A DNA stretch of 64,000 nt. Source: Sulfuricurvum sp. (GTDB taxonomy: Bacteria > Campylobacterota > Campylobacteria > Campylobacterales > Sulfurimonadaceae). Numbering within the stretch: the first letter of the stretch is position 1; each line of letters opens with the position of its first letter. Under the pieces are notes generated by a model. That model had not been told where the DNA came from, did no database searches, and saw only the letters and a list, made by a program, of their open reading frames with translations. Below are positions 51,628-64,000 of the stretch, piece by piece. The DNA lies in assembly GCF_028681615.1 (NCBI RefSeq), contig NZ_JAQUHV010000009.1:1-64000 (forward strand), given 5' to 3'. The position numbers and the translations under genes were made by a program.

Positions 51628-51756
51628 AAACTGCGCGTGAGTGAAGAAACGACGTGTTGCTTTGAAAATGAAACACAAGTGATTCGCGCATAAAACTCCC
51701 TATTTCAGGGATTAGCGCTCTTTTGGATTCACTCTCATTTCATCCTACCCCTCACA

Positions 51757-51761
51757 TTACC
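51757..51761. repeat. Target-site duplication TTACC, right copy
   Basis: Second copy of TTACC, directly after the prophage terminal ACA and in frame with the continuing integrase codons. Confidence 0.85.
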
Positions 51762-53042
51762 GATACCGAGATTAAAAAATTAAAGCCTAACATTGAAGAA
51801 AATAAAGATTACACAAAAGCAGATGGCAATGGCTTGCAGCTGCTTGTAAAAACGGATGGCAGAAAAATTTGGGAAATACGCTATACGATCAATGGTAAAC
51901 CTAAAAAGACTACGCTTGGAACTTATCCTACTGTTACTCTTGCAAAAGCACGAGTAATGCGTGATGAATATAGGAGTAAATCATTCGAAGGTATTGATCC
52001 GATCGATGAGCGTAAAAAAGCAAAAGAGATTATTGCCGAAAAAGAGGCTGAGAATCAGGCTATGTCAGAAGGGCAGTTTCATAAAGTTGCATATGGTTGG
52101 TTGAATAGTCTAACAAATGCAGAAAGTACCCATAAAAAAAGATTTACTTCTTTCGAAAATGATATATTTCCATTTTTCTGCACCTATGATAAATACAAGC
52201 ACATTGTCTCCTCAAAACATATCAAAGATATAACTCATCCGGAACTGTTGAAAGTATTATTGGAAAAAGAGAAGACGGCACCTGTTGTTGCTAATCGTCG
52301 CTATATTGACTGTAAACGCTTATGGCGATATGCGATCAATCACGGTCATACCGAAATCAATACCCCGGATAGAATAAGCATCGATGCTTTTAAAAAACAT
52401 GAAGTGAAGCATCGTCCAAAAATTACCGATGAAAAAGTATTGGGTGAAATGCTCAGAGCGATGGATAGTTATAAAGGTGAAGGTGGTGTCATAGTGCGAA
52501 ATGTCCTAAGACTTACCGCTTTGACAATGCTAAGAATAGGTAATTTGGCAACATTAAAATGGGATAACATCCATTTAAAAAAAGGTGTAATCATCATCAA
52601 GCGTTCTGAGATGAAAGTCAAAGATAAAAATTTGCCTGATTTTGTTTTACCTTTGTCTCGCCAAGCTATCGAAATATTGAAAGAAACTAAGGAATTGACA
52701 GGTTGGGGCGAATGGGTGTTCCACGGTATCAAAGACAGCCGATATCATGTGAATAAAGAGAGCGGTAATAAAGCATTACGAAAAATGGGATTTACGGATG
52801 AAGAGAGTGGAAGAAAACAGACACTGCATAGTTTTCGAGGAACTTATGCAAGTCTGGCGCGAACGCATCATAAAGACCACGGGGCAGTATTTGAAGCATT
52901 AGAGAGAGTTCTGGATCATCAAGAAGGCAATCAAGTTGTTCGAGCTTATGCACATATGGCTGATTACACTGAACAGATGAGGGAACTTTTACAGTGGTGG
53001 GCTGATTTCTTGGACGAGTTGAAAGTCAGAAAATATGAGTGA
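51757..53042 (+). pseudogene. P4-type island integrase, 3' part separated from its start
   Basis: About 428 residues of a DUF4102-type tyrosine integrase. It has the arm domain DTEIKKLKP ... GRKIWEIRYTINGKPKKTTLGTYP, the core-binding domain, and the catalytic residues Arg in TMLRIGNLATLKW, HSFRGTY, then LDHQ and the terminal Tyr in VRAYAHM. Its true start is at 17839, now 33.9 kb away. The frame stays open into the phage end, where a TTG at 51723 could in principle start a hybrid protein, but there is no good ribosome site or known promoter. The island is probably locked unless the phage excises precisely. Confidence 0.88.
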
Positions 53043-53073: not shown

Positions 53074-53292
53074 TCAATCTTCCAACTGAATATCTTTTAT
53101 CACACTTTTAAGCCGTTTATATTTTTCATTTTCTATGTAGAGGTCGAGCCACGATTCGACCCAATAGGGAAACTCTCTATCATTGCTTCCCCAACCATTT
53201 ACACTCTGATAATTTAGTCCAAATAAAGCAGCGAACTCTTTTCGAGAGAGTTTGGCATCATTTAGTTTTTGGTTAAAGCTATCTCTATCCAA
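53074..53292 (-). CDS. Small HTH regulator next to the integrase
   Basis: The 72-residue protein has an XRE-like HTH (SRKEFAALFGLNYQSVNGWGSNDREFPYWVESWL). It starts at TTG behind AGGGA, and its upstream region carries TATGAATACTA repeats shared with the divergent coupling-protein gene. It is likely to control that operon and itself. Confidence 0.65.
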   Translation of the reverse strand: MDRDSFNQKLNDAKLSRKEFAALFGLNYQSVNGWGSNDREFPYWVESWLDLYIENEKYKRLKSVIKDIQLED

Positions 53293-53419: not shown

Positions 53420-54952
53420 ATGGCAGAGATGGGATTTGTACTAAATAGTAAAAAATCTACCTCAATTGAGGTACCAATCGATGAATTCAAACATGCTCTC
53501 TTTATCGGAAAGACGGGAAATGGAAAAACTACCGGTGGAATCAATCCGATCATGGATAGCCGTATCAAAGCCGGATATGGAATGTTGATTTTCGATGAAA
53601 AAGGGAAAGAACACCGTGTCGTCAAATCCATCGCTGATTGTTATGGCCGCTTGAATGATGTCATTGAATTAGGCAAACCCCACGGAATCACCGTTAATTT
53701 GATGGATAATCTCAGTGAACGTCAACTAGAAAGTTTTATCCGACGTTTTTTGAAACGTTCAAAAGAATCGTTTTGGGAAGAAGGCGCAGTCAATTTATTT
53801 ATGCCGCTTGCCAAATGGTTGTTAGGCATGAAAAAACTGTACCGATTTGGAATCGATACTTTTGATATGAAGGCAATTGAATTAACATTGACCCACAAGG
53901 AAAGTAAAACGGAAAAAGAGTATGTATGGAGTATTGATATCAATCCTTTAACAGCAAAAGAGATTTCCACTTATTTTCATGATCCAGTGGCATTTGCAAT
54001 GGTGTCCCAAAAAAGCGGTGTCTATGTTGATATGTTGATCACGCATGTCCTTGAATCCATTGAAACGAATCATCTAAAAAATAAGGGTCTTAATGATCAA
54101 CTGCTTGTAGCCGAAAAGCTGATCGATGAGTTGAACGAGCTTCAAACAATCCTAAAAGGCAAAATGATCAAAGCAGACTTATCGGAATCCAGTGGAAATA
54201 ACGGGACCTACTTCATGGTCAGTTCTGTGATCAATATCCTAGCTCAAGACCGTTATGTCAATAATCCACACGCTGAGAGCATTGCATCATTATTGAATCA
54301 AGGGAAAATTATTGTTATCAATACCGAATCGTTCTCTACGCCGATTTTATCATCGTTGCTCGATCAGACACTCGAATCGCTGGCTACGCGTTCAAAATAT
54401 AAAAATGTACACCCGATTAGCATTATCATCGATGAAGCAAACCGCGTGTTATCGTCTGACAGCGACATTCGTATTGATGTGCTCCGCGAAAGTAAAGTCG
54501 AGGTGATCATGGCAGCACAGAATCACGAGCAGATGATTACGAAAATGGGTGGGGACCGATGGCTCTCATTTGCGCAAAATTTCAACACTCGACTTCATTT
54601 TTTAGGGATGGGACAAGGTGGTAGATTTAAATTGATGAATGAACTTGATGATCAAGAGTTTGAAGCAGAGCCTATGTTTTTTAATCAACATGATTTGGAT
54701 AATGTGGAATGGAAATATCAAAGCAATCACCAATTCTATAATCGCTACCTTGGCAATACGGAACATAAAATAATTGTCATGTACGATCATGCCCTATTTG
54801 AGAAAGAAGAAAAAATCATTCTGTATAATCTGACCGATCAAGCGATGAGTTTTGCTACCATCTACCCAACTGAAGCCAATGTTAAATCCACTGTTCTTCG
54901 AGACAGGGTTAAAGATTTGAAAAATAATCGTTTGTTTGGAGTGGCAGTGTGA
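53420..54952 (+). CDS. VirD4/TraG-like coupling ATPase (soluble)
   Basis: The 510-residue protein has Walker A IGKTGNGKT at residues 29-37 and a Walker B IIIDEAN near 336. DEKGKE at about 56 and the AQN motif near 362 are typical of HerA/VirD4 DNA pumps. No N-terminal membrane anchor is present, unlike most coupling proteins, so it may work with another membrane partner or recruit the relaxosome to a host secretion channel. AAGGAG precedes the ATG. A HerA-type defence or repair ATPase is an alternative, but the nearby relaxase favours conjugation. Confidence 0.8.
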   Translation: MAEMGFVLNSKKSTSIEVPIDEFKHALFIGKTGNGKTTGGINPIMDSRIKAGYGMLIFDEKGKEHRVVKSIADCYGRLNDVIELGKPHGITVNLMDNLSERQLESFIRRFLKRSKESFWEEGAVNLFMPLAKWLLGMKKLYRFGIDTFDMKAIELTLTHKESKTEKEYVWSIDINPLTAKEISTYFHDPVAFAMVSQKSGVYVDMLITHVLESIETNHLKNKGLNDQLLVAEKLIDELNELQTILKGKMIKADLSESSGNNGTYFMVSSVINILAQDRYVNNPHAESIASLLNQGKIIVINTESFSTPILSSLLDQTLESLATRSKYKNVHPISIIIDEANRVLSSDSDIRIDVLRESKVEVIMAAQNHEQMITKMGGDRWLSFAQNFNTRLHFLGMGQGGRFKLMNELDDQEFEAEPMFFNQHDLDNVEWKYQSNHQFYNRYLGNTEHKIIVMYDHALFEKEEKIILYNLTDQAMSFATIYPTEANVKSTVLRDRVKDLKNNRLFGVAV

Positions 54953-55016
54953 TTGATCGTAGAGGTGGAGATTATTTATAAAATAAAAACATCGCATGGT
55001 AGAGAGAGTGCGATAA

Positions 55017-55205
55017 ACACTCGTTTTCAAATATATATTTAACTTCAATTACTTCCGGATATTGGAGAAAGAAAACAAGATTCTTTTATACGACCTCGTG
55101 ACCAATCAGATATCATTTGTAACTCTATTGCCTGATGCAGAAAGGGTCAAAAGCAGAGTTTTCCGGGATCATTACAACGCATTAAAACTTGGAAATGCAT
55201 TTAGT
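55017..55205 (+). pseudogene. C-terminal remnant of a second coupling ATPase
   Basis: Without a start, the frame reads LEKENKILLYDLVTNQISF ... VKSRVFRDHYNALKLGNAF. This aligns over its whole length with the C-terminus of the intact ATPase just upstream (FEKEEKIILYNLTDQAMSF ... VKSTVLRDRVKDLKNNRLF). It is clearly diverged, so it is not a recent tandem duplication but the end of a related gene from another island, left as a scar. Confidence 0.8.
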
Positions 55206-55260
55206 ATTGTAGTGTAATAATACGTGAATTTTGAGAGAATTGAATAAATGGATAAGCAAA

Positions 55261-56445
55261 TCACTCAATTTGGAGGTTTAAAGATTGTTGACCTTTTTCT
55301 TTACTGTCTTTTTCACTATTTTCTTGGTATTCCTTGATCATCTTTTCGAAAAGATCCCAATCAGAAGTAAAATTAAATTTTTCTATTTTGACATAATAAT
55401 CATATTTCTGTTGAATTTTTTTCTTCAATTCAGAAATATTAGGTGACATATCAAGAAAATAGCTGCTTATCATTTCAAAAGCGATCAAATCATTGTCAAA
55501 TTGTTTTTTTAAGTCAGCCAAAATATTGTTTGATGAACTCATACTCCTAAATATTCCGTAAACAACTTTCTCAGCAAATATATATGCAAGAACAAATACT
55601 AATTGAGGGAATATGACTTTTTTATTAACTGTAGCTTTTAATAGTTGTTGGTCACTTGCTAACAGCATTAGCATATTTTTAATTTTGTCATATTTATTTG
55701 CAGAATTTCTTATCTCTTTAACTAATTCATCCATTTGATCGGCTATAACGCCTAGAAATGTGAATCTGTTATTTTCATTTTTTGATTTTTTGTGTAAATA
55801 ATATTGAAAAAAATCTAGATTAATGATTTGCTCTTTAAATTCATCTCGTATGTATGCAATGAGATAGTCAAAAGAGTTGTCAATCATTTCTTGAATAATC
55901 AACAACTCTTTATTATTATCATTATCCAATGACTCCCAATTAAATTTTAAGTCTAATAAAGCTGGCGATATTTCAAAACATGATGTATCAAATAAAATGA
56001 AATTTTTCAAACTTGTAAATAAAAGATATTCTAGTGAATGCTTATGAAGATCATCTTCTGTTGCTCTTTTGATAACAGATGACACATCAATAGATGTGTA
56101 TTTTGCGACATTTGGAAATGAGTCATGATTTACAAAATTTTGGGTGAAATGATTTTTAACATCTACTAAAAGCATTTGCCATAATATAAAAATGATCACT
56201 TGCCTAGTGTTTTCATTTTCCAAGCAAGTATTGATAAAATTCGTCTGATTACTTATATCGTTAGTCGGTGACTTTTTATTTTCTAACAAGTTTTGAAGTA
56301 ATTCAAGTCTTTGTTTTTGATCCATTTGGCAAAATATTGACATAAAATCGTTATTCAAAAATTCTGATTTGCATGCGGATTGTGATGATGAAAAACAGTT
56401 GTTTAATTCTTTTAATTGTGAAATAAATTCTTGAGAAATCTGCAT
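55261..56445 (-). CDS. A+T-rich hypothetical protein inserted in the mobilisation region
   Basis: The 394-residue protein is rich in Asn, Lys, Phe and Ile, mostly helical, without membrane segments or motifs that I recognise. It is the only leftward gene in this part. Its G+C content is visibly below that of its neighbours, and it is bounded by the coupling-protein scar on one side and a terminator hairpin on the other. All of this marks it as cargo. An anti-phage (abortive infection) role is possible for such solitary genes but cannot be supported by sequence. Confidence 0.7.
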   Translation of the reverse strand: MQISQEFISQLKELNNCFSSSQSACKSEFLNNDFMSIFCQMDQKQRLELLQNLLENKKSPTNDISNQTNFINTCLENENTRQVIIFILWQMLLVDVKNHFTQNFVNHDSFPNVAKYTSIDVSSVIKRATEDDLHKHSLEYLLFTSLKNFILFDTSCFEISPALLDLKFNWESLDNDNNKELLIIQEMIDNSFDYLIAYIRDEFKEQIINLDFFQYYLHKKSKNENNRFTFLGVIADQMDELVKEIRNSANKYDKIKNMLMLLASDQQLLKATVNKKVIFPQLVFVLAYIFAEKVVYGIFRSMSSSNNILADLKKQFDNDLIAFEMISSYFLDMSPNISELKKKIQQKYDYYVKIEKFNFTSDWDLFEKMIKEYQENSEKDSKEKGQQSLNLQIE

Positions 56446-56606: not shown

Positions 56607-56900
56607 ATGAAAAAGTCACTTAAACAATACACGGAGCAACATGCTCCAAGAAAAAATGCATCAAAGTTGTTGCCATTCTATTCAGAAATGAAGGCAATGC
56701 GTGATCAAGGATATTCGTATCGACAAATATCTGAAGCTCTTCAGGAAAATGGCATAAATGCTTATCCCTCAGAAATAAAACGCTTTATGGATAGGCGTGA
56801 TAATCAGATAGGTCTTGTGCGTAATAACCCAGATGGTATTACTCACCAAAAAGATTACAAGGATCAATTCTTTGAAAAATTTGACAAAAAGGGCGAATAG
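56607..56900 (+). CDS. Small HTH-like mobilisation protein
   Basis: The 97-residue basic protein has a likely HTH at about residues 25-60 (SEMKAMRDQGYSYRQISEALQENGINAYPSEIKRFM). Small proteins of this kind sit ahead of ParA-like proteins in mobile elements and bind the origin region. The GTG of the next gene overlaps its stop (TAGTG). The role is inferred from order. Confidence 0.6.
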   Translation: MKKSLKQYTEQHAPRKNASKLLPFYSEMKAMRDQGYSYRQISEALQENGINAYPSEIKRFMDRRDNQIGLVRNNPDGITHQKDYKDQFFEKFDKKGE

Positions 56901-57661
56901 TGAAAGTCAGAAGAATTATAGTTGTTATTCAAAAAAAAGGTGGTGTTGGTAAATCAACGCTCGGTTTTCAGGTAGTTACGGCACTTGTCGATGGTGTTGC
57001 GTGTGTCATTGAGGTCGAAAATGATCATGATACATCTAAGGTATTTGTTAACAGCAACCAATTGCGTGGAAAAATGCGTGCCGTCAAATCTAAAGATTTT
57101 ACCAATACCTTGGCCGAAGCAATTTTTGATGCAGCAGAAAATGGTGGTGACATTATCATCAATGGCCATTTGAATGAAATCATCGATACGTTAAGAAACT
57201 CATCGTCGTATGATGAATTGATTTTTATTTGTCCATTTATGAGTGATCGTGCTCAAATTGAAAACATAACAGCAACAGTTGATGCTTTGAAGGGATACAA
57301 AGTTTTGGTGATTGGTAATTCAAGTAGTAAAGAGCAGTTTATTTTTTGGAATGGATCTGAGAAATATGGCCTTCCCGGTGTAAAAGTGGAATATAAAAAA
57401 CTTCCTACAGTCTACATTCCAAAAACTGAGGTATTTGATCTGTCATCAATGCTTGGCGAAACGATAACTGATACAGCTGTATTAGCTAGAGACTATACTC
57501 CAGATCAAATACGTGATTATTTGATCGAAAAAGCCAATGGTGATCGAGAATGGTTTAAAACACAGTTTTCCAGATATCACATTTCTGTAGCTTGCAAAAA
57601 CTTCATAGATAACGATTTGGCGGATATGAAGAAGGCGATTGAAATATTGAGGGATCTATGA
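56900..57661 (+). CDS. ParA/StbB-like P-loop ATPase
   Basis: The 253-residue protein has the deviant Walker A QKKGGVGKSTLG at residues 11-22 (signature Lys as in ParA/MinD) and a second switch region. It lacks the usual motif DxPP, having FICPFMSD instead. In MobF plasmids StbB-type ATPases tune plasmid segregation versus conjugation, and VirC1-type ATPases stimulate relaxosomes. It starts at GTG behind AAGGG and overlaps the next gene. Confidence 0.75.
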   Translation: MKVRRIIVVIQKKGGVGKSTLGFQVVTALVDGVACVIEVENDHDTSKVFVNSNQLRGKMRAVKSKDFTNTLAEAIFDAAENGGDIIINGHLNEIIDTLRNSSSYDELIFICPFMSDRAQIENITATVDALKGYKVLVIGNSSSKEQFIFWNGSEKYGLPGVKVEYKKLPTVYIPKTEVFDLSSMLGETITDTAVLARDYTPDQIRDYLIEKANGDREWFKTQFSRYHISVACKNFIDNDLADMKKAIEILRDL

Positions 57662-58257
57662 TGGATTTGGAACAATTTAGGTCGTCTGTTGACGACCTTT
57701 TTCATGCAATAGGAGTTCTTAAAAAGGAAAAATCTGATTTGGCTGAAATGATGCCAAAAGTTGAAAAAACGCTGACTGAAATTAATAAAATGAGCAGTTT
57801 TTTCCAAAAACCTATGCAGGAAGCATCAAAGAATGCGGTGGAGACCTATCAACAAATATTATCAAACAGCACGATCTCTATTAAAAATGAGACGGATGTT
57901 TTAATTGATGAATCAAGGCGTCTCAAAAAAGCGTCTTCTGGTATTAAAGAAGCAGCAGATCGCATCCGCGTTTTTTCAGTCTTTTCGGTAGGTTTGTCAG
58001 CAATCGGGATATGCTTGCTTGCAGGTGTGGTCGGATTGATTTACGGAATTCGCGAAGGGTATCCAATAGGATATGACAAAGGGTTTTCTGAGGGGACGAA
58101 AGCTCGAGAGTATCAGATTGAACACGAGTTTCTCGAGAGGATAGGCCTTAAGCAGAGTGAGGTCAAAAGAAATTCAGTTATTTTGCAACTTAAACCTGGT
58201 TATCAACTATTTGGGAAGCAACTTGAGAGTGGGTATTTCATTAGAGTTTACAAGTAG
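57658..58257 (+). CDS. Coiled-coil membrane protein of the mobilisation run
   Basis: In this 199-residue protein, residues 15-100 form coiled coils (KKEKSDLAEMMPKVEKTLTE ...), then there is one membrane segment (about 103-125, VFSVGLSAIGICLLAGVVGLI) and a cytoplasmic tail. It may anchor the ParA-like or coupling ATPase, which itself lacks a membrane segment. The pairing is inferred from order and topology. Confidence 0.6.
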   Translation: MMDLEQFRSSVDDLFHAIGVLKKEKSDLAEMMPKVEKTLTEINKMSSFFQKPMQEASKNAVETYQQILSNSTISIKNETDVLIDESRRLKKASSGIKEAADRIRVFSVFSVGLSAIGICLLAGVVGLIYGIREGYPIGYDKGFSEGTKAREYQIEHEFLERIGLKQSEVKRNSVILQLKPGYQLFGKQLESGYFIRVYK

Positions 58258-58266
58258 CCTTTTTGT

Positions 58267-58340
58267 AGCACTTTTTAGTCTAACTAGTGCTACGTGTAGC
58301 TGTTTTGTGGCACGAATATTTCACCTTTGTATCTGGTGTG
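58267..58340. other. Possible oriT region (inverted repeats ahead of the relaxase)
   Basis: The 150-base gap before the relaxase holds GTAGCAC...GTGCTAC around an A/T loop and CACCTTTGTATCTGGTG with GGTGTGG beside it. MobF origins combine such inverted repeats with a nick site nearby, and are usually upstream of the mob genes. No consensus nick site can be assigned by eye. Confidence 0.3.
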
Positions 58341-58407: not shown

Positions 58408-59868
58408 ATGCCGGTAGAGAGTTTCATGTTAACAGGTAAAAGAACTGATTATCACTTTGCTATTGATAAATATATCCACCATTCAATGTGGCTTGGTAAT
58501 TTATGTGATAGCTTCAATTTAACAAAAAAGCAAAAAGTGATTAAAAGAGATTTTGAGATTCTAAGTAGTGGAATAAATCCTATTACTAAAAAACAACTCA
58601 TAAAAGAAAATACTACAGGTAAAAAACGTTTTGGTATCGAAATAGTAATACCAAAGCCAAAAACTGTAAGCTTAGTTCAAGTTGTTGCATTCGAATGGGA
58701 CGAAAATTTGGCGATGGAATTGATGAATGTAGATATTAATGCATATACATCATTAATCGAATTTATAGAAAAAGAACATGTTTTATATAGGGTTCGTTCT
58801 GAAAAATATAGAGAAAAAATTCGAAGTAACTCGTGTATAACCGCAAATTTTATGCACTTGTTTAATTCAAGCGACGAACAACAGGCTCATACTCATTGGC
58901 ATTGTGTACTATTTCCATTCACTAAAAATAGAAATCAATATTATGCTCTTCAAAATCCATTGATCATCAGATCCTCAAAGCTTTATGGGGCTCTCTATCG
59001 AAGTGAATTGGCGAAGCGTCTGATTACTTGTGGTTACTCGCTACGACTCACGGATAAAAAATATGGTTTTTTTGAAATTGAAGGTATATCAGATCAAATA
59101 AAAACATTATTTTCTTCACGAAGCAATGAAATCGAAAAGTACAAGCTAGAGTTTAAAGCTCATTACCACAATGCACCTGGATACAAAATCGCTCATTTGG
59201 CTAAATTTAAGAACCGTCAAAAACAAAGTGAAAAAGATGTTTCAAAAATTATCAGAAGCAATGTTGAGAAACTTGAAAGCGCAGGCTTCACTTTTGAACA
59301 TATGTGTCGTTTAAAAATGAATGCAATGACTCACGAGCCAATTAATTTGGCAGAAGTAATTTATGAAATCTATCGCAAGGAGGGAGAAAAACTGTTTAAA
59401 TTCTCGAAGGAGCGAATCCTTAAAAATATAGCTATAAGAGCTATTGTACGAGGGACAGGTGCGTATATCGATGAAATTTATAAACCATTTCAAGGAGGTG
59501 ATTATGTAGAAGTCGTAAAGCGATTTATTAACCAAAAAATTCAAAAAAATGAAAGGATCCAAGATGATTCAGGAACTCGACGAGGAGTCGTTGAAAATTA
59601 TACTGGTGGAGTTTTCGAACTCTCAAAAAGAGGTTGTCAAAACGCTCGAAGAGCACACGAATATTTTGACAAATATTGTCAAAATCTTAACGATGCCATC
59701 TACATCGCCATCGATGAGAGAATATGTATTGTGCGCAGTGAACAAAATCGAGAGCGTGGAGAAACATTTGGGTCTTATTCCGGTACCGAAACCATGAGTG
59801 AAGATATATTGTTCAACCGTGAAGATGAGGTTTGGGATCAGCCCAATATTGTATTTAATCCAAAATAA
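58408..59868 (+). CDS. MobF/TrwC-type relaxase without helicase domain
   Basis: The 486-residue protein has the TrwC relaxase domain over about residues 6-290: candidate nucleophile Tyr15 or Tyr22, IPKPKTVSLVQVVAF at 81-95, the metal-binding HTHWH at 161-165 and the LYGALYRSELAKRL helix. TrwC and TraI proteins usually continue for 500-1,400 residues with a helicase; here only about 200 residues follow, with no Walker motif. The start ATG at 58408 is chosen for AAAGGAGG ahead. The last 100 codons overlap another credible frame (59564-59797). Confidence 0.82.
   Translation: MPVESFMLTGKRTDYHFAIDKYIHHSMWLGNLCDSFNLTKKQKVIKRDFEILSSGINPITKKQLIKENTTGKKRFGIEIVIPKPKTVSLVQVVAFEWDENLAMELMNVDINAYTSLIEFIEKEHVLYRVRSEKYREKIRSNSCITANFMHLFNSSDEQQAHTHWHCVLFPFTKNRNQYYALQNPLIIRSSKLYGALYRSELAKRLITCGYSLRLTDKKYGFFEIEGISDQIKTLFSSRSNEIEKYKLEFKAHYHNAPGYKIAHLAKFKNRQKQSEKDVSKIIRSNVEKLESAGFTFEHMCRLKMNAMTHEPINLAEVIYEIYRKEGEKLFKFSKERILKNIAIRAIVRGTGAYIDEIYKPFQGGDYVEVVKRFINQKIQKNERIQDDSGTRRGVVENYTGGVFELSKRGCQNARRAHEYFDKYCQNLNDAIYIAIDERICIVRSEQNRERGETFGSYSGTETMSEDILFNREDEVWDQPNIVFNPK
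59564..59797 (+). CDS. Overlapping coiled-coil ORF inside the relaxase 3' end
   Basis: The 77-residue frame (+1 to the relaxase) has AAAGGA before its ATG and reads as a regular helical protein (EESLKIILVEFSNSQKEVVK ... NKIESVEKHLGL). The relaxase frame over the same bases is rich in Arg, Cys and Tyr and less protein-like. Its stop overlaps an ATGA in the relaxase frame. It may be a real nested mob-accessory gene. Confidence 0.55.
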   Translation: MIQELDEESLKIILVEFSNSQKEVVKTLEEHTNILTNIVKILTMPSTSPSMREYVLCAVNKIESVEKHLGLIPVPKP

Positions 59869-59876
59869 GGAGTCAC

Positions 59877-60065
59877 ATGGAGCAAAATCGATTATTAAGG
59901 ATACGAGACGTCCAACAAAGAGTCTCATTGGGCCGTTCTACAATATGGCTATGGATCAAGCAAAAGCGCTTCCCATCAGGTTTTAAGCTCTCGAACAGTG
60001 TGAGAGTCTGGCATGAAAGGGATATTAACGATTTCGTGGAAGGAAAATGGAATGAGCAAAAATGA
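59877..60065 (+). CDS. AlpA-like regulator/excisionase
   Basis: The 62-residue protein has the AlpA pattern LLRIRDVQQRVSLGRSTIWLWIKQKRFPSGFKLSNSVRVWHERDINDFV. AlpA-type MerR-like proteins activate integrase genes and help excision of P4- and CP4-57-type islands. It is co-oriented with the relaxase, behind AAGGAG. Since the integrase is broken, its original excision role may be lost. Confidence 0.82.
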   Translation: MEQNRLLRIRDVQQRVSLGRSTIWLWIKQKRFPSGFKLSNSVRVWHERDINDFVEGKWNEQK

Positions 60066-60225
60066 TAAACAGGTAGAAGAGAAAGCTGCAACTCTCTCTT
60101 CTGTAAAAAGTTCTGACAAAAGAACTCCAAAATTATATCCTAAGTCGTTTTGGAAGGTGGCATTGCCACCTTCACTTGACATGCAAAATATTAGATTTAA
60201 AAAAATGGGGGTGATGTATGTTTAA
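60052..60225 (+). CDS. 57-residue hypothetical protein
   Basis: The short basic protein starts within the end of the AlpA-like gene, behind AAGGAAAATGGA, and its stop overlaps the SSB-like start. The tight packing supports expression. Function unknown. Confidence 0.45.
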   Translation: MSKNDKQVEEKAATLSSVKSSDKRTPKLYPKSFWKVALPPSLDMQNIRFKKMGVMYV

Positions 60226-60637
60226 TGTTGTCACATTATCTGGATATCTGATCAGGGATATAGCAATTACTACGGAAGAAGGTGAAATGTCAGCACGCAG
60301 TACTATTGCTGTTTTCCAAAAAAATGGGCAACTTAAAAACACCAATGAAGAAACATTGCTGATTGATCTCGTTTTTAGAAAAGATTTGATTGCTTTTGCA
60401 TTGGATAATTTACATGGAGGATCAAAAGTATTTGTCGATGGCAGAATTTATGAAAAAAATTCAAAACATTATGTCATTGTTGAATCTGTCCAGATATTAG
60501 ATTGTGTATCACAATCTTCGTCTTCGAATCTTTTCTGTATTGACAATATGGATTCTGAAGAAAATGGCAATGATCAAAACCTTTTTGAAGATTCGATTGA
60601 TATTGATGTGGGTGAAGGGGTGAAAATTAAACTTTGA
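60218..60637 (+). CDS. Single-strand DNA-binding protein, SSB-like
   Basis: The 139-residue OB-fold protein (FNVVTLSGYLIRDIAITTEEGEMSARSTIAV, LLIDLVFRKDLIAFALDNL, KVFVDGRIYEKNSKHYVIVES) has SSB pattern. Its acidic tail is replaced by GVKIKL rather than the DDxPF tip needed to recruit host proteins. It may coat the transferred strand. Island SSB genes often serve establishment in the new host. Confidence 0.8.
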   Translation: MFNVVTLSGYLIRDIAITTEEGEMSARSTIAVFQKNGQLKNTNEETLLIDLVFRKDLIAFALDNLHGGSKVFVDGRIYEKNSKHYVIVESVQILDCVSQSSSSNLFCIDNMDSEENGNDQNLFEDSIDIDVGEGVKIKL

Positions 60638-62320: not shown

Positions 62321-63250
62321 ATGGGACAAATTCATGACTACGATAAAATCCTTACCCGTTTAACTATCATCCTGCAGCGATTGTATGAGGGCGAAGTATT
62401 ATCGGTTCAAGAATTAGCCTCAGAGTTCAATGTATCCACGAAAACCATCCAGCGTGATTTCAATCAGCGCCTTATCCGTTTTCCAATAGAGAAGCAGGGG
62501 AGTAAGTGGAAGATGCAATTTGGTCATGCACTCACCAAAGAGCGAACCCCCGAAGAGGCACTGGTGTTGGAGATGCTGGGAAATATCGCCGAAGGAATAG
62601 GAAACGAATTCGGTGTCAAAGCCAAATCGCTCTTCTCCAAACTCCAAAACAATACTAAAAACCCCATCTACTCTAAAACCATTATCGAAGATATCTCCGA
62701 TAAACTTGGACACTTCCATATCATCGAACAAGCAATTATGGAGAACAAGAGGGTACGGTTTAATTACAACAACAAACTCCGTCATGTTCATCCCTATAAA
62801 ATTGTCTCCTTTGAAGGGTACTGGTATCTCTATGGTGAAGAGTTCATGGAGAGCAAACTCAAGACCTATTATTTTAAAGGGATCGATCATCTTGAAATTA
62901 CCGAAGAGAAATTCATTCCTAACGATGCAACGTACCGGATACTAGAACGTGCCATCAACGCATGGTTTGAACCCGACAAAGAACCTTTTGAAGTGACACT
63001 CAAAGCTTCCCCTGAAATCGCAAAATATTTTCACCGTAGACCACTCGCTAGTACCCAGCGAATACTAAAAACTTATGAGGATGGAAGCATGGTAATCGAA
63101 GTATTGGCAACTTCGGAACGAGAGATCATGCAAGAGGTTAAGAAATGGATGCCAGATCTCATCATCACCTCTCCAAAACCCTTAGCTCTTAAAGCCAAAA
63201 GTATTGCCGATAGCTTTTTGAATAAACAGATCGAAGAGTTGATTGGGTAA
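62321..63250 (+). CDS. WYL-domain transcription regulator
   Basis: The 309-residue protein has an N-terminal DeoR-type HTH (LSVQELASEFNVSTKTIQRDFNQRL at residues 27-51). The WYL domain has the name motif in FEGYWYLYGEEF near residue 165 and HPYKIV just before it. A C-terminal WCX-like part (EVTLKASPEIAKYFHRR) ends it. WYL regulators often control defence systems and respond to nucleic acids or nucleotides (BrxR, CapW). Here the neighbours are tiny ORFs rather than a known system. Confidence 0.88.
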   Translation: MGQIHDYDKILTRLTIILQRLYEGEVLSVQELASEFNVSTKTIQRDFNQRLIRFPIEKQGSKWKMQFGHALTKERTPEEALVLEMLGNIAEGIGNEFGVKAKSLFSKLQNNTKNPIYSKTIIEDISDKLGHFHIIEQAIMENKRVRFNYNNKLRHVHPYKIVSFEGYWYLYGEEFMESKLKTYYFKGIDHLEITEEKFIPNDATYRILERAINAWFEPDKEPFEVTLKASPEIAKYFHRRPLASTQRILKTYEDGSMVIEVLATSEREIMQEVKKWMPDLIITSPKPLALKAKSIADSFLNKQIEELIG

Positions 63251-63254
63251 AACG

Positions 63255-63268
63255 GACACAACGGTGTC
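63255..63268. promoter_or_regulatory. WYL-regulator operator, copy 2
   Basis: GACACAACGGTGTC, arms GACAC/GTGTC, starting five bases after the WYL stop and about 48 bases before the 27-residue ORF. An additional inverted repeat, CCTTTACA (63277-63284) and TGTAAAGG (63300-63307), follows. Confidence 0.55.
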
Positions 63269-63315
63269 GCACCTCTCCTTTACACTGCCATTATCAAAAT
63301 GTAAAGGATTGCACG

Positions 63316-63399
63316 ATGAAACTCACAATGGCTACACGCACTTCATGGATGAAGAGAACCAAAGAGACAATTACGCAATGGATTTTTTTTGCGTTGTAA
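63316..63399 (+). CDS. 27-residue basic-hydrophobic ORF
   Basis: The tiny ORF begins MKLTMATRTSWMKRTKE and ends in a hydrophobic stretch (WIFFAL). AAAGGA is ten bases ahead, within a leader shared in part with the 40-residue ORF. A cationic start with a hydrophobic end is the profile of small membrane-active peptides. Only its regulated-looking leader supports it as a gene. Confidence 0.4.
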   Translation: MKLTMATRTSWMKRTKETITQWIFFAL

Positions 63400-63501
63400 G
63401 TATTGGATTCATTAATGTATCAGCCTCTTGAAGCTATTATGAGGCGTTACTTATAATTTATATTTAATTTACAAACACGTATTTTATGACAAAGTAAAAA
63501 A

Positions 63502-64000
63502 ATGAAAAATGACCATTTACCATTTGAAGAAGCAAGAGCGTTTGTTAGAAATGTAGGATTACAAAATGCCCGTGAGTGGAAATTATGGTCCAAAGGCGAA
63601 CTTCAAAACCATGATAGAAGACCTGATTTTATCCCTTCTAATCCTGATATTGTTTACAAAAGATCTGGTTGGCTTGGCTGGAGTGACTGGTTAAAAGAAG
63701 TAAAAGAACAAAAATATCTCCCTTTTGAACAAGCTAAAGAATTTGTGCATTCACTAAATTTGAAAAACAACCAAGAGTGGATCAGATATTATCAAGGAAA
63801 ATTAGAAGGCGTGGAAAAACCGGACTATATTCCTTGGAACCCACAAATCGTTTATAAATCCGATTGGATTGGAATAAAAGACTGGCTTGGAACATCTTGG
63901 AGGGATTTTAAAGAGGCAAGGGAATTTGTTAGGAACTTAGGCCTTGGTGGAACTATTGAGTGGAGAGCATATTGCCAGGGTGTTTTAGAAGGATATGATT
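63502..64000 (+). CDS. Integrase-type repeat protein (partial, runs off the window)
   Basis: At least 166 residues are visible, open to the end of the window. They are built of repeats of about 60 residues: LPFEEARAFVRNVGLQNARE..W, then DFIPSNPDIVYK and GWLGWSDWL; LPFEQAKEFVHSLNL..W, YIPWNPQIVYK, WIGIKDWLGT; and a third beginning FKEAREFVRNLGL. This is the phage-integrase repeat unit (INT_rpt-like) found in some bacterial integrases and in long repeat proteins of algae and giant viruses. What domain follows is not visible. Confidence 0.75.
   Translation, partial: MKNDHLPFEEARAFVRNVGLQNAREWKLWSKGELQNHDRRPDFIPSNPDIVYKRSGWLGWSDWLKEVKEQKYLPFEQAKEFVHSLNLKNNQEWIRYYQGKLEGVEKPDYIPWNPQIVYKSDWIGIKDWLGTSWRDFKEAREFVRNLGLGGTIEWRAYCQGVLEGYD

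Follow-up and report, generated by a model that had tools for sequence, protein, structure and literature searches.

The analysed stretch of 64,000 nucleotides, referred to below as the window, carries a relaxase gene at 58408–59868. On the same forward strand, a tyrosine integrase, a soluble ATPase, an HTH–ParA gene pair and a coiled-coil membrane protein are encoded upstream of it, and an AlpA-type protein and a single-stranded DNA-binding protein downstream. The relaxase gene runs from ATG 58408 to the TAA ending at 59868 and encodes 486 amino acids. The start codon is located directly 3' of AAAGGAGGGATCGCA, a strong GGAGG ribosome site, and an alternative start, TTG 58327, which would give a longer protein, is likewise open. 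The product was annotated as a helicase-less MobF (TrwC-type) relaxase with the relaxase (trans-esterase) domain in residues 1–300 (58408–59307), followed by 186 C-terminal residues (59308–59865) without a helicase.

The first-pass annotation had assigned the protein to the TrwC/MobF type from its motifs, and this assignment held in the profile and structure comparisons. Residues 24–279 matched Pfam TrwC (PF08751) with an E value of 1.1e-35 and 124 bits (cut-off 25), and the score with the NCBIfam MobF equivalog NF041492 was 115 bits, which is above the cut-off of 100. A sequence search against the PDB returned TrwC at E 1.2e-12. The motif I tyrosines Y15 and Y22, corresponding by position to Y18 and Y26 of TrwC, were invariant across a 25-row MobF alignment, as were H161 and H165, and H150 was nearly so; a three-histidine metal site is thereby retained. 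Due to a 2-residue indel at the HTHWH metal site (161–165), which is gapped differently by HMMER and MAFFT, it depends on the alignment whether the metal pair is read as HTH or HWH. The mean pLDDT of the AlphaFold model was 67.5, with values of about 80–90 for most of residues 23–300 and below 50 for most of residues 340–486. The predicted structure was superimposed on TrwC with a Z score of 29.3 and an rmsd of 2.7 over 283 residues; the resemblance to TrwC/TraI was confined to residues 1–313, and all structural matches above Z 8 were relaxase domains. Residues 1–300 were thus confirmed by Pfam, NCBIfam, the predicted fold and the catalytic residues as a genuine TrwC/MobF relaxase domain. Since assignment to a MOB class is based on the N-terminal relaxase domain, the missing helicase bears on the variant and not on the MOBF class.

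The observation that the protein ends near residue 486 without Walker motifs was also borne out. The motif search detected no Walker A anywhere in the 486 residues, the Pfam and NCBIfam searches found no helicase domain in the relaxase, its C-terminal part included, and the predicted structure contained no helicase fold. A marginal match (E 0.005–0.008) to the segment preceding the helicase of full-length MobF proteins was obtained for residues of about 330–375 (or 297–375) and was not accepted as homology. For comparison, Walker A was kept in 45 of 46 MobF proteins, usually about 430–510 residues in, and the remaining one (L058) was cut by the contig end. Several apparent further cases were discarded. 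Five helicase-less MobF candidates from other phyla either had a Walker A of variant form (GxAGTAKT, GKAGSAKT) or were truncated at a contig end, L002/L025 was a full-length MobF relaxase truncated in the latter way, and L084, a short TrwC fragment in a phage-labelled record, was situated at a contig edge. A separate MobF-type helicase in the source genome was rejected as well, as the AAA_30 matches are located on other contigs; we read them as RecD2 or Pif1-like proteins.

MobF relatives were collected from Campylobacterota genomes and the GTDB contig collection. The majority of them were full-length proteins with Walker A, and helicase-less MobF relaxases of 508–544 residues were found at eight further Campylobacterota loci. 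Five of these belong to Sulfurimonas (L049, L050, L051, L052, L055), one to Campylobacteraceae (L053), one to another family (L140), and one to Sulfurospirillum (L054), whose gene is interrupted by a frameshift and located on a contig of low coverage; beyond the eight, L032 is a C-terminal fragment of a short relaxase. The relaxase of the window is therefore not a lone truncation; relatives in sulfur-oxidising Campylobacterota have the same loss. The attribution to Campylobacterota made in the first-pass annotation was supported. No close relatives of the window relaxase itself were recovered by a single-protein search of the genome and viral contig collections, by alignment-based scans of viral contigs or, beyond the loci named, by searches of Campylobacterota genomes. 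The best relative was about 30% identical, which is too distant for measuring selection.

A maximum-likelihood tree was calculated for 54 relaxase domains, all of the MOBF family. The Campylobacterota MobF relaxases formed a single group (98/94), except the full-length row L020, and the window relaxase was placed inside this MOBF group with a branch length of 2.64. Seven short relaxases made up a clade (99/97) within the group, the sister of which was the full-length L010. The short form looks derived, since the surrounding lineages retain the helicase. The grouping of all short forms together was disfavoured in the AU test (p-AU 0.0385), and a single origin was rejected on these grounds, a rejection made unsure by the long branch of the window relaxase. 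Accordingly, there was at least one loss of the helicase and probably a second, with long-branch effects making the latter unsure.

The very long branch and the missing close relatives would also be expected of a decaying remnant, i.e. a full-length MobF relaxase whose helicase half was deleted, so that only a functionless truncated protein is left. The low prediction confidence of the C-terminus and a decayed copy of an ATPase 3' end with two stops (54984–55211), 3 kb upstream, point in the same direction. Against this stand the intact reading frame, the strong ribosome site and the retention of all catalytic residues. No helicase debris was found 3' of the relaxase gene, where intact AlpA and SSB genes are located instead, and the short form is maintained at no fewer than eight other loci together with a conserved overlapping gene. 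We consider a remnant unlikely.

The overlapping gene had not been seen in the first-pass annotation and is an addition to it. In nine relatives, the 3' end of the short relaxase gene contained a second open reading frame of about 80–105 codons in the +1 frame. Codon position 3 was the least variable in the overlap, with a pairwise difference of 0.302 compared to 0.471 and 0.401 at positions 1 and 2, respectively. In the upstream single-coding part, the difference at position 3 was 0.53–0.62 (about 0.57) over most of the gene; a drop as seen in the overlap would be expected under selection on the +1 frame. The identity in the nested frame exceeded that in the relaxase frame in 15 of 15 pairs. 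All nine loci had a Shine-Dalgarno-like GAGG/GGAGG or a near variant in combination with a start codon, which was ATG except for TTG in L053; the typical arrangement was GAGGAGAAATxxGAAA-ATG. The encoded protein has two conserved amphipathic segments and the motif (E)PSLK(E/D)(L/M)MMLMLEQQE. It matched nothing in Pfam, and its profile gave no match in the full-length MobF loci tested. On this pattern of conservation, the nested gene is taken as real in the short lineage, and it would represent a conserved, apparently undescribed protein within a relaxase gene.

In the window, a probable nested gene of 82 codons was located at 59549–59797, in the same frame and place as in the relatives. The second ATG at 59564, which is preceded by an AGGA site and gives 77 residues, appears to be the better start. 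This frame was the top-scoring sequence of the window against the nested profile, yet its E value in the full search was 1.5. With an enlarged profile, it was aligned collinearly, and its score was reached by 4 of 2000 shuffles of synonymous codons in the relaxase gene and by 26 of 2000 residue shuffles. The length of the frame alone was not significant (383 of 5000 shuffles), and the predicted protein contains no transmembrane stretch. As judged from the sequence, 59549–59797 is a probable but not proven counterpart of the relatives' nested gene, with weaker support than in the relatives.

The short relaxase genes are preceded by a conserved hairpin, GCCACTTTT...AAAAGTGGC, with GGGTGT or its variants (GGGTGG, GGGTAG) in one or two copies 3' of it, an arrangement that we take to resemble the nic region of F. 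The window contains an 8-bp inverted repeat without mismatches at 58265–58293 (GTAGCACT-13 nt-AGTGCTAC), with GTGTAG directly 3' of it. By a rough estimate, chance alone would produce a repeat of this size in a few per cent of such stretches, and 58265–58293 is therefore designated only as a candidate oriT hairpin.

The HTH protein (56607–56900, 97 residues) is StbA-like by position and profile, and the ATPase encoded next to it (56900–57661, 253 residues) was identified as ParA/StbB-like by profile searches; the two genes overlap by one base. In most Campylobacterota loci with enough flanking sequence, an HTH–ParA pair was found, in either order, directly upstream of short as well as full-length MobF genes. 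The pair thus marks a MOBF system and not the helicase-less form. A ParA profile for which only Campylobacterota sequences were used detected StbB of R388 (E 2.7e-13), a ParA-like protein with a deviant Walker A, and StbB-like proteins from the MobF loci of Acinetobacter and Caballeronia were matched as well. In the case of the HTH profile, the match to R388 StbA was marginal (E 0.068), and adjacent genes of other MobF loci were matched weakly (E 2e-4 to 4e-4). StbA binds direct repeats near oriT, and no repeats of this kind were assigned in the window. In R388, conjugation is abolished when stbB is deleted, whereas without stbA its frequency is 50-fold higher and the plasmid becomes unstable (PMC3098194).

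The gene between the pair and the relaxase (57658–58257) encodes a protein with one transmembrane stretch (residues 110–128) and a coiled coil read from the sequence. The Sulfurimonas elements contain a protein of comparable build with undetectable homology to it, and no significant homologue was found in the short-relaxase loci. On the other side of the relaxase gene, an AlpA-type HTH protein of 62 residues (59877–60065; PF05930, E 9.7e-10) and a single-stranded DNA-binding protein of 139 residues (60218–60637; PF00436, E 4.2e-7) are encoded.

The Sulfurimonas short-relaxase elements (L022–L024, L049–L055, L140) share a downstream gene set which comprises a protein of about 80 residues, an HTH protein, a protein of about 572 residues without a Pfam match, a TrwB-like coupling protein and a Toprim protein. 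Outside the relaxase and the HTH–ParA module, the only gene of the window clearly common to these elements is the reverse-strand gene at 53074–53292, encoding a 72-residue HTH protein (E 4e-13 to its Sulfurimonas homologue). A 394-residue orphan is encoded on the reverse strand at 55261–56445, between the soluble ATPase and the relaxase module, and it gave nothing significant in Pfam, NCBIfam or PADLOC.

The soluble TraG/Mad8-like ATPase (53420–54952) had been proposed to be the coupling protein of a compact mobilisation system together with the relaxase, the ParA-like ATPase and the coiled-coil protein. Its TraG/TrwB-like motifs and its location, with the integrase on one side and the relaxase module on the other, are compatible with a self-contained system of this kind. 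The gene is, however, separated from the relaxase by 3.5 kb. Relatives of the ATPase were present in 29 of 397 genomes, scattered through Campylobacterota, and none of the ten loci inspected (L108–L117) had a relaxase beside it; the ATPase gene adjoined WYL regulators in three of them and ClpP together with a conserved partner of about 430–450 residues in others. The best match in the defence library, a weak one, was Mad8 of the MADS system. The ATPase has no transmembrane stretch and thus lacks the N-terminal membrane part of TrwB/VirD4, and the Sulfurimonas short-relaxase elements use a different, TrwB-like coupling protein (PF10412, E 4.7e-24), no such protein being encoded in the window. 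The assignment of 53420–54952 as a TrwB/VirD4 coupling protein was rejected, its membership in the relaxase system is doubtful, and a self-contained system coupled by it appears very improbable. The assignment of the HTH and ParA-like genes to the relaxase, in contrast, was supported. The ATPase family with WYL regulators or with ClpP and the 430–450-residue protein possibly represents an undescribed system, perhaps of defence. The decayed sequence at 54984–55211 is a second copy of the ATPase 3' end with 33% identity, and we read it as the remains of a former tandem paralogue.

The tyrosine integrase (51723–53042) is of the Arm-binding DUF4102 type (PF13356, E 6.8e-23; PF00589, E 8.2e-14) and probably marks the end of an integrated element to which the relaxase module would belong. 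No attachment-site repeats of at least 15 bases were found flanking the integrase and the relaxase, and the tRNA-Leu end was not repeated. A Mu-like transposable prophage with transposase, terminase, portal, tape measure and baseplate genes is located directly left of the integrase (20800–49700). To the right of the relaxase module, a defence island extends from 62321 to 64000 and into L166 (contig positions 63000–82198). It contains a WYL regulator, a DruE3-like helicase of 1624 residues with an 1184-residue partner, and type I restriction genes, among which hsdS and hsdR are separated by an inserted CBASS set (cyclase, phospholipase, E2). The island is possibly a cargo of the element.

Two families of VirB4-type ATPases were searched, and neither was detected in the source genome. 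A T4SS match was also missing in 20 of 24 genomes with full-length MobF, therefore, its absence is not diagnostic and was discarded as a feature distinguishing short relaxases. The integrase, the relaxase module and the lack of a detectable VirB4-type ATPase, the last being weak evidence, point to an integrative mobilizable element.

Helicase-less HUH enzymes often act as replication initiators which recruit a host helicase. Accordingly, the protein could be taken for a rolling-circle initiator of the excised element, with the SSB and AlpA proteins as partners, instead of a conjugation relaxase. The SSB and ParA-like genes nearby, the lack of a TrwB-type coupling protein here and the VirB4 result for the genome fit such a role. 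Nevertheless, the domain is specifically of the MobF type with two motif I tyrosines, the StbA/StbB-like upstream module is a conjugation module (PMC3098194), and the related short elements have a TrwB-like coupling protein. A role as replication initiator is thus regarded as improbable.

We find it reasonably probable that 58408–59868 encodes the relaxase of an integrative mobilizable element, in which the MOBF protein has been cut to its trans-esterase half and a short tail. The relaxase would bind the hairpin just 5' of its own gene, Y15 would cut one strand and Y22 would perform the second cut, the relaxase staying on the 5' end. A role in organising or positioning the complex may fall to the StbA/StbB-like pair and the coiled-coil membrane protein. 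Unwinding could be carried out by a host helicase of the RecD2 or UvrD type or by the machinery of a co-resident conjugative element, from which the secretion channel would presumably be borrowed as well; the dependence on a separate helicase, put forward in the first-pass annotation, is plausible. The relaxase genes of the related short lineage, and probably that of the window, also contain the +1-frame gene at their 3' ends, and its small helical product would be an accessory protein.

In comparison with known systems, the element shares an integrase, a relaxase and the lack of a detected secretion system of its own with integrative mobilizable elements, of which no canonical one with a MobF relaxase was known as of the 2017 review (PMC5704250). 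The relaxase has the fold, the two motif I tyrosines and the histidine metal site in common with TrwC of R388 and TraI of F and pKM101. In contrast to these, it has no C-terminal SF1 helicase, is 486 residues long compared to about 960 or more, shows 22% identity, and differs by the 2-residue indel at the HTHWH site. In the literature, MOBF relaxases are presented as carrying a helicase which is needed for transfer (PMC12857230), and a published helicase-less MOBF branch was not found in a search conducted mostly outside the subscription literature. A maintained branch of this kind would indicate that the fusion of relaxase and helicase is dispensable, and it offers natural material for identifying the helicase responsible for unwinding the strand during transfer.

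The upstream module corresponds to stbABC of R388 in that a MobF relaxase is accompanied by an HTH gene and a ParA-like gene which overlap (PMC3098194). Unlike in R388, the pair of the window is in the same orientation as the relaxase and directly upstream of it, and the third gene encodes a coiled-coil membrane protein. Nested mobilisation genes are represented by mobB in mobA of RSF1010 and by mbeB and mbeD in mbeA of ColE1. As in mobA and mbeA, the nested gene described here is a small accessory gene in another frame of the relaxase 3' part, whereas the relaxase family is MOBF, the nested protein has no Pfam match, and that of the window is predicted to lack a transmembrane stretch. Tentatively, the nested protein may functionally replace the helicase half by recruiting or loading a host helicase or by coupling the relaxase to a foreign channel. 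If so, a two-protein relaxosome convergent with mobA/mobB and mbeA/mbeB would have arisen in Campylobacterota on at least one occasion and perhaps on two.
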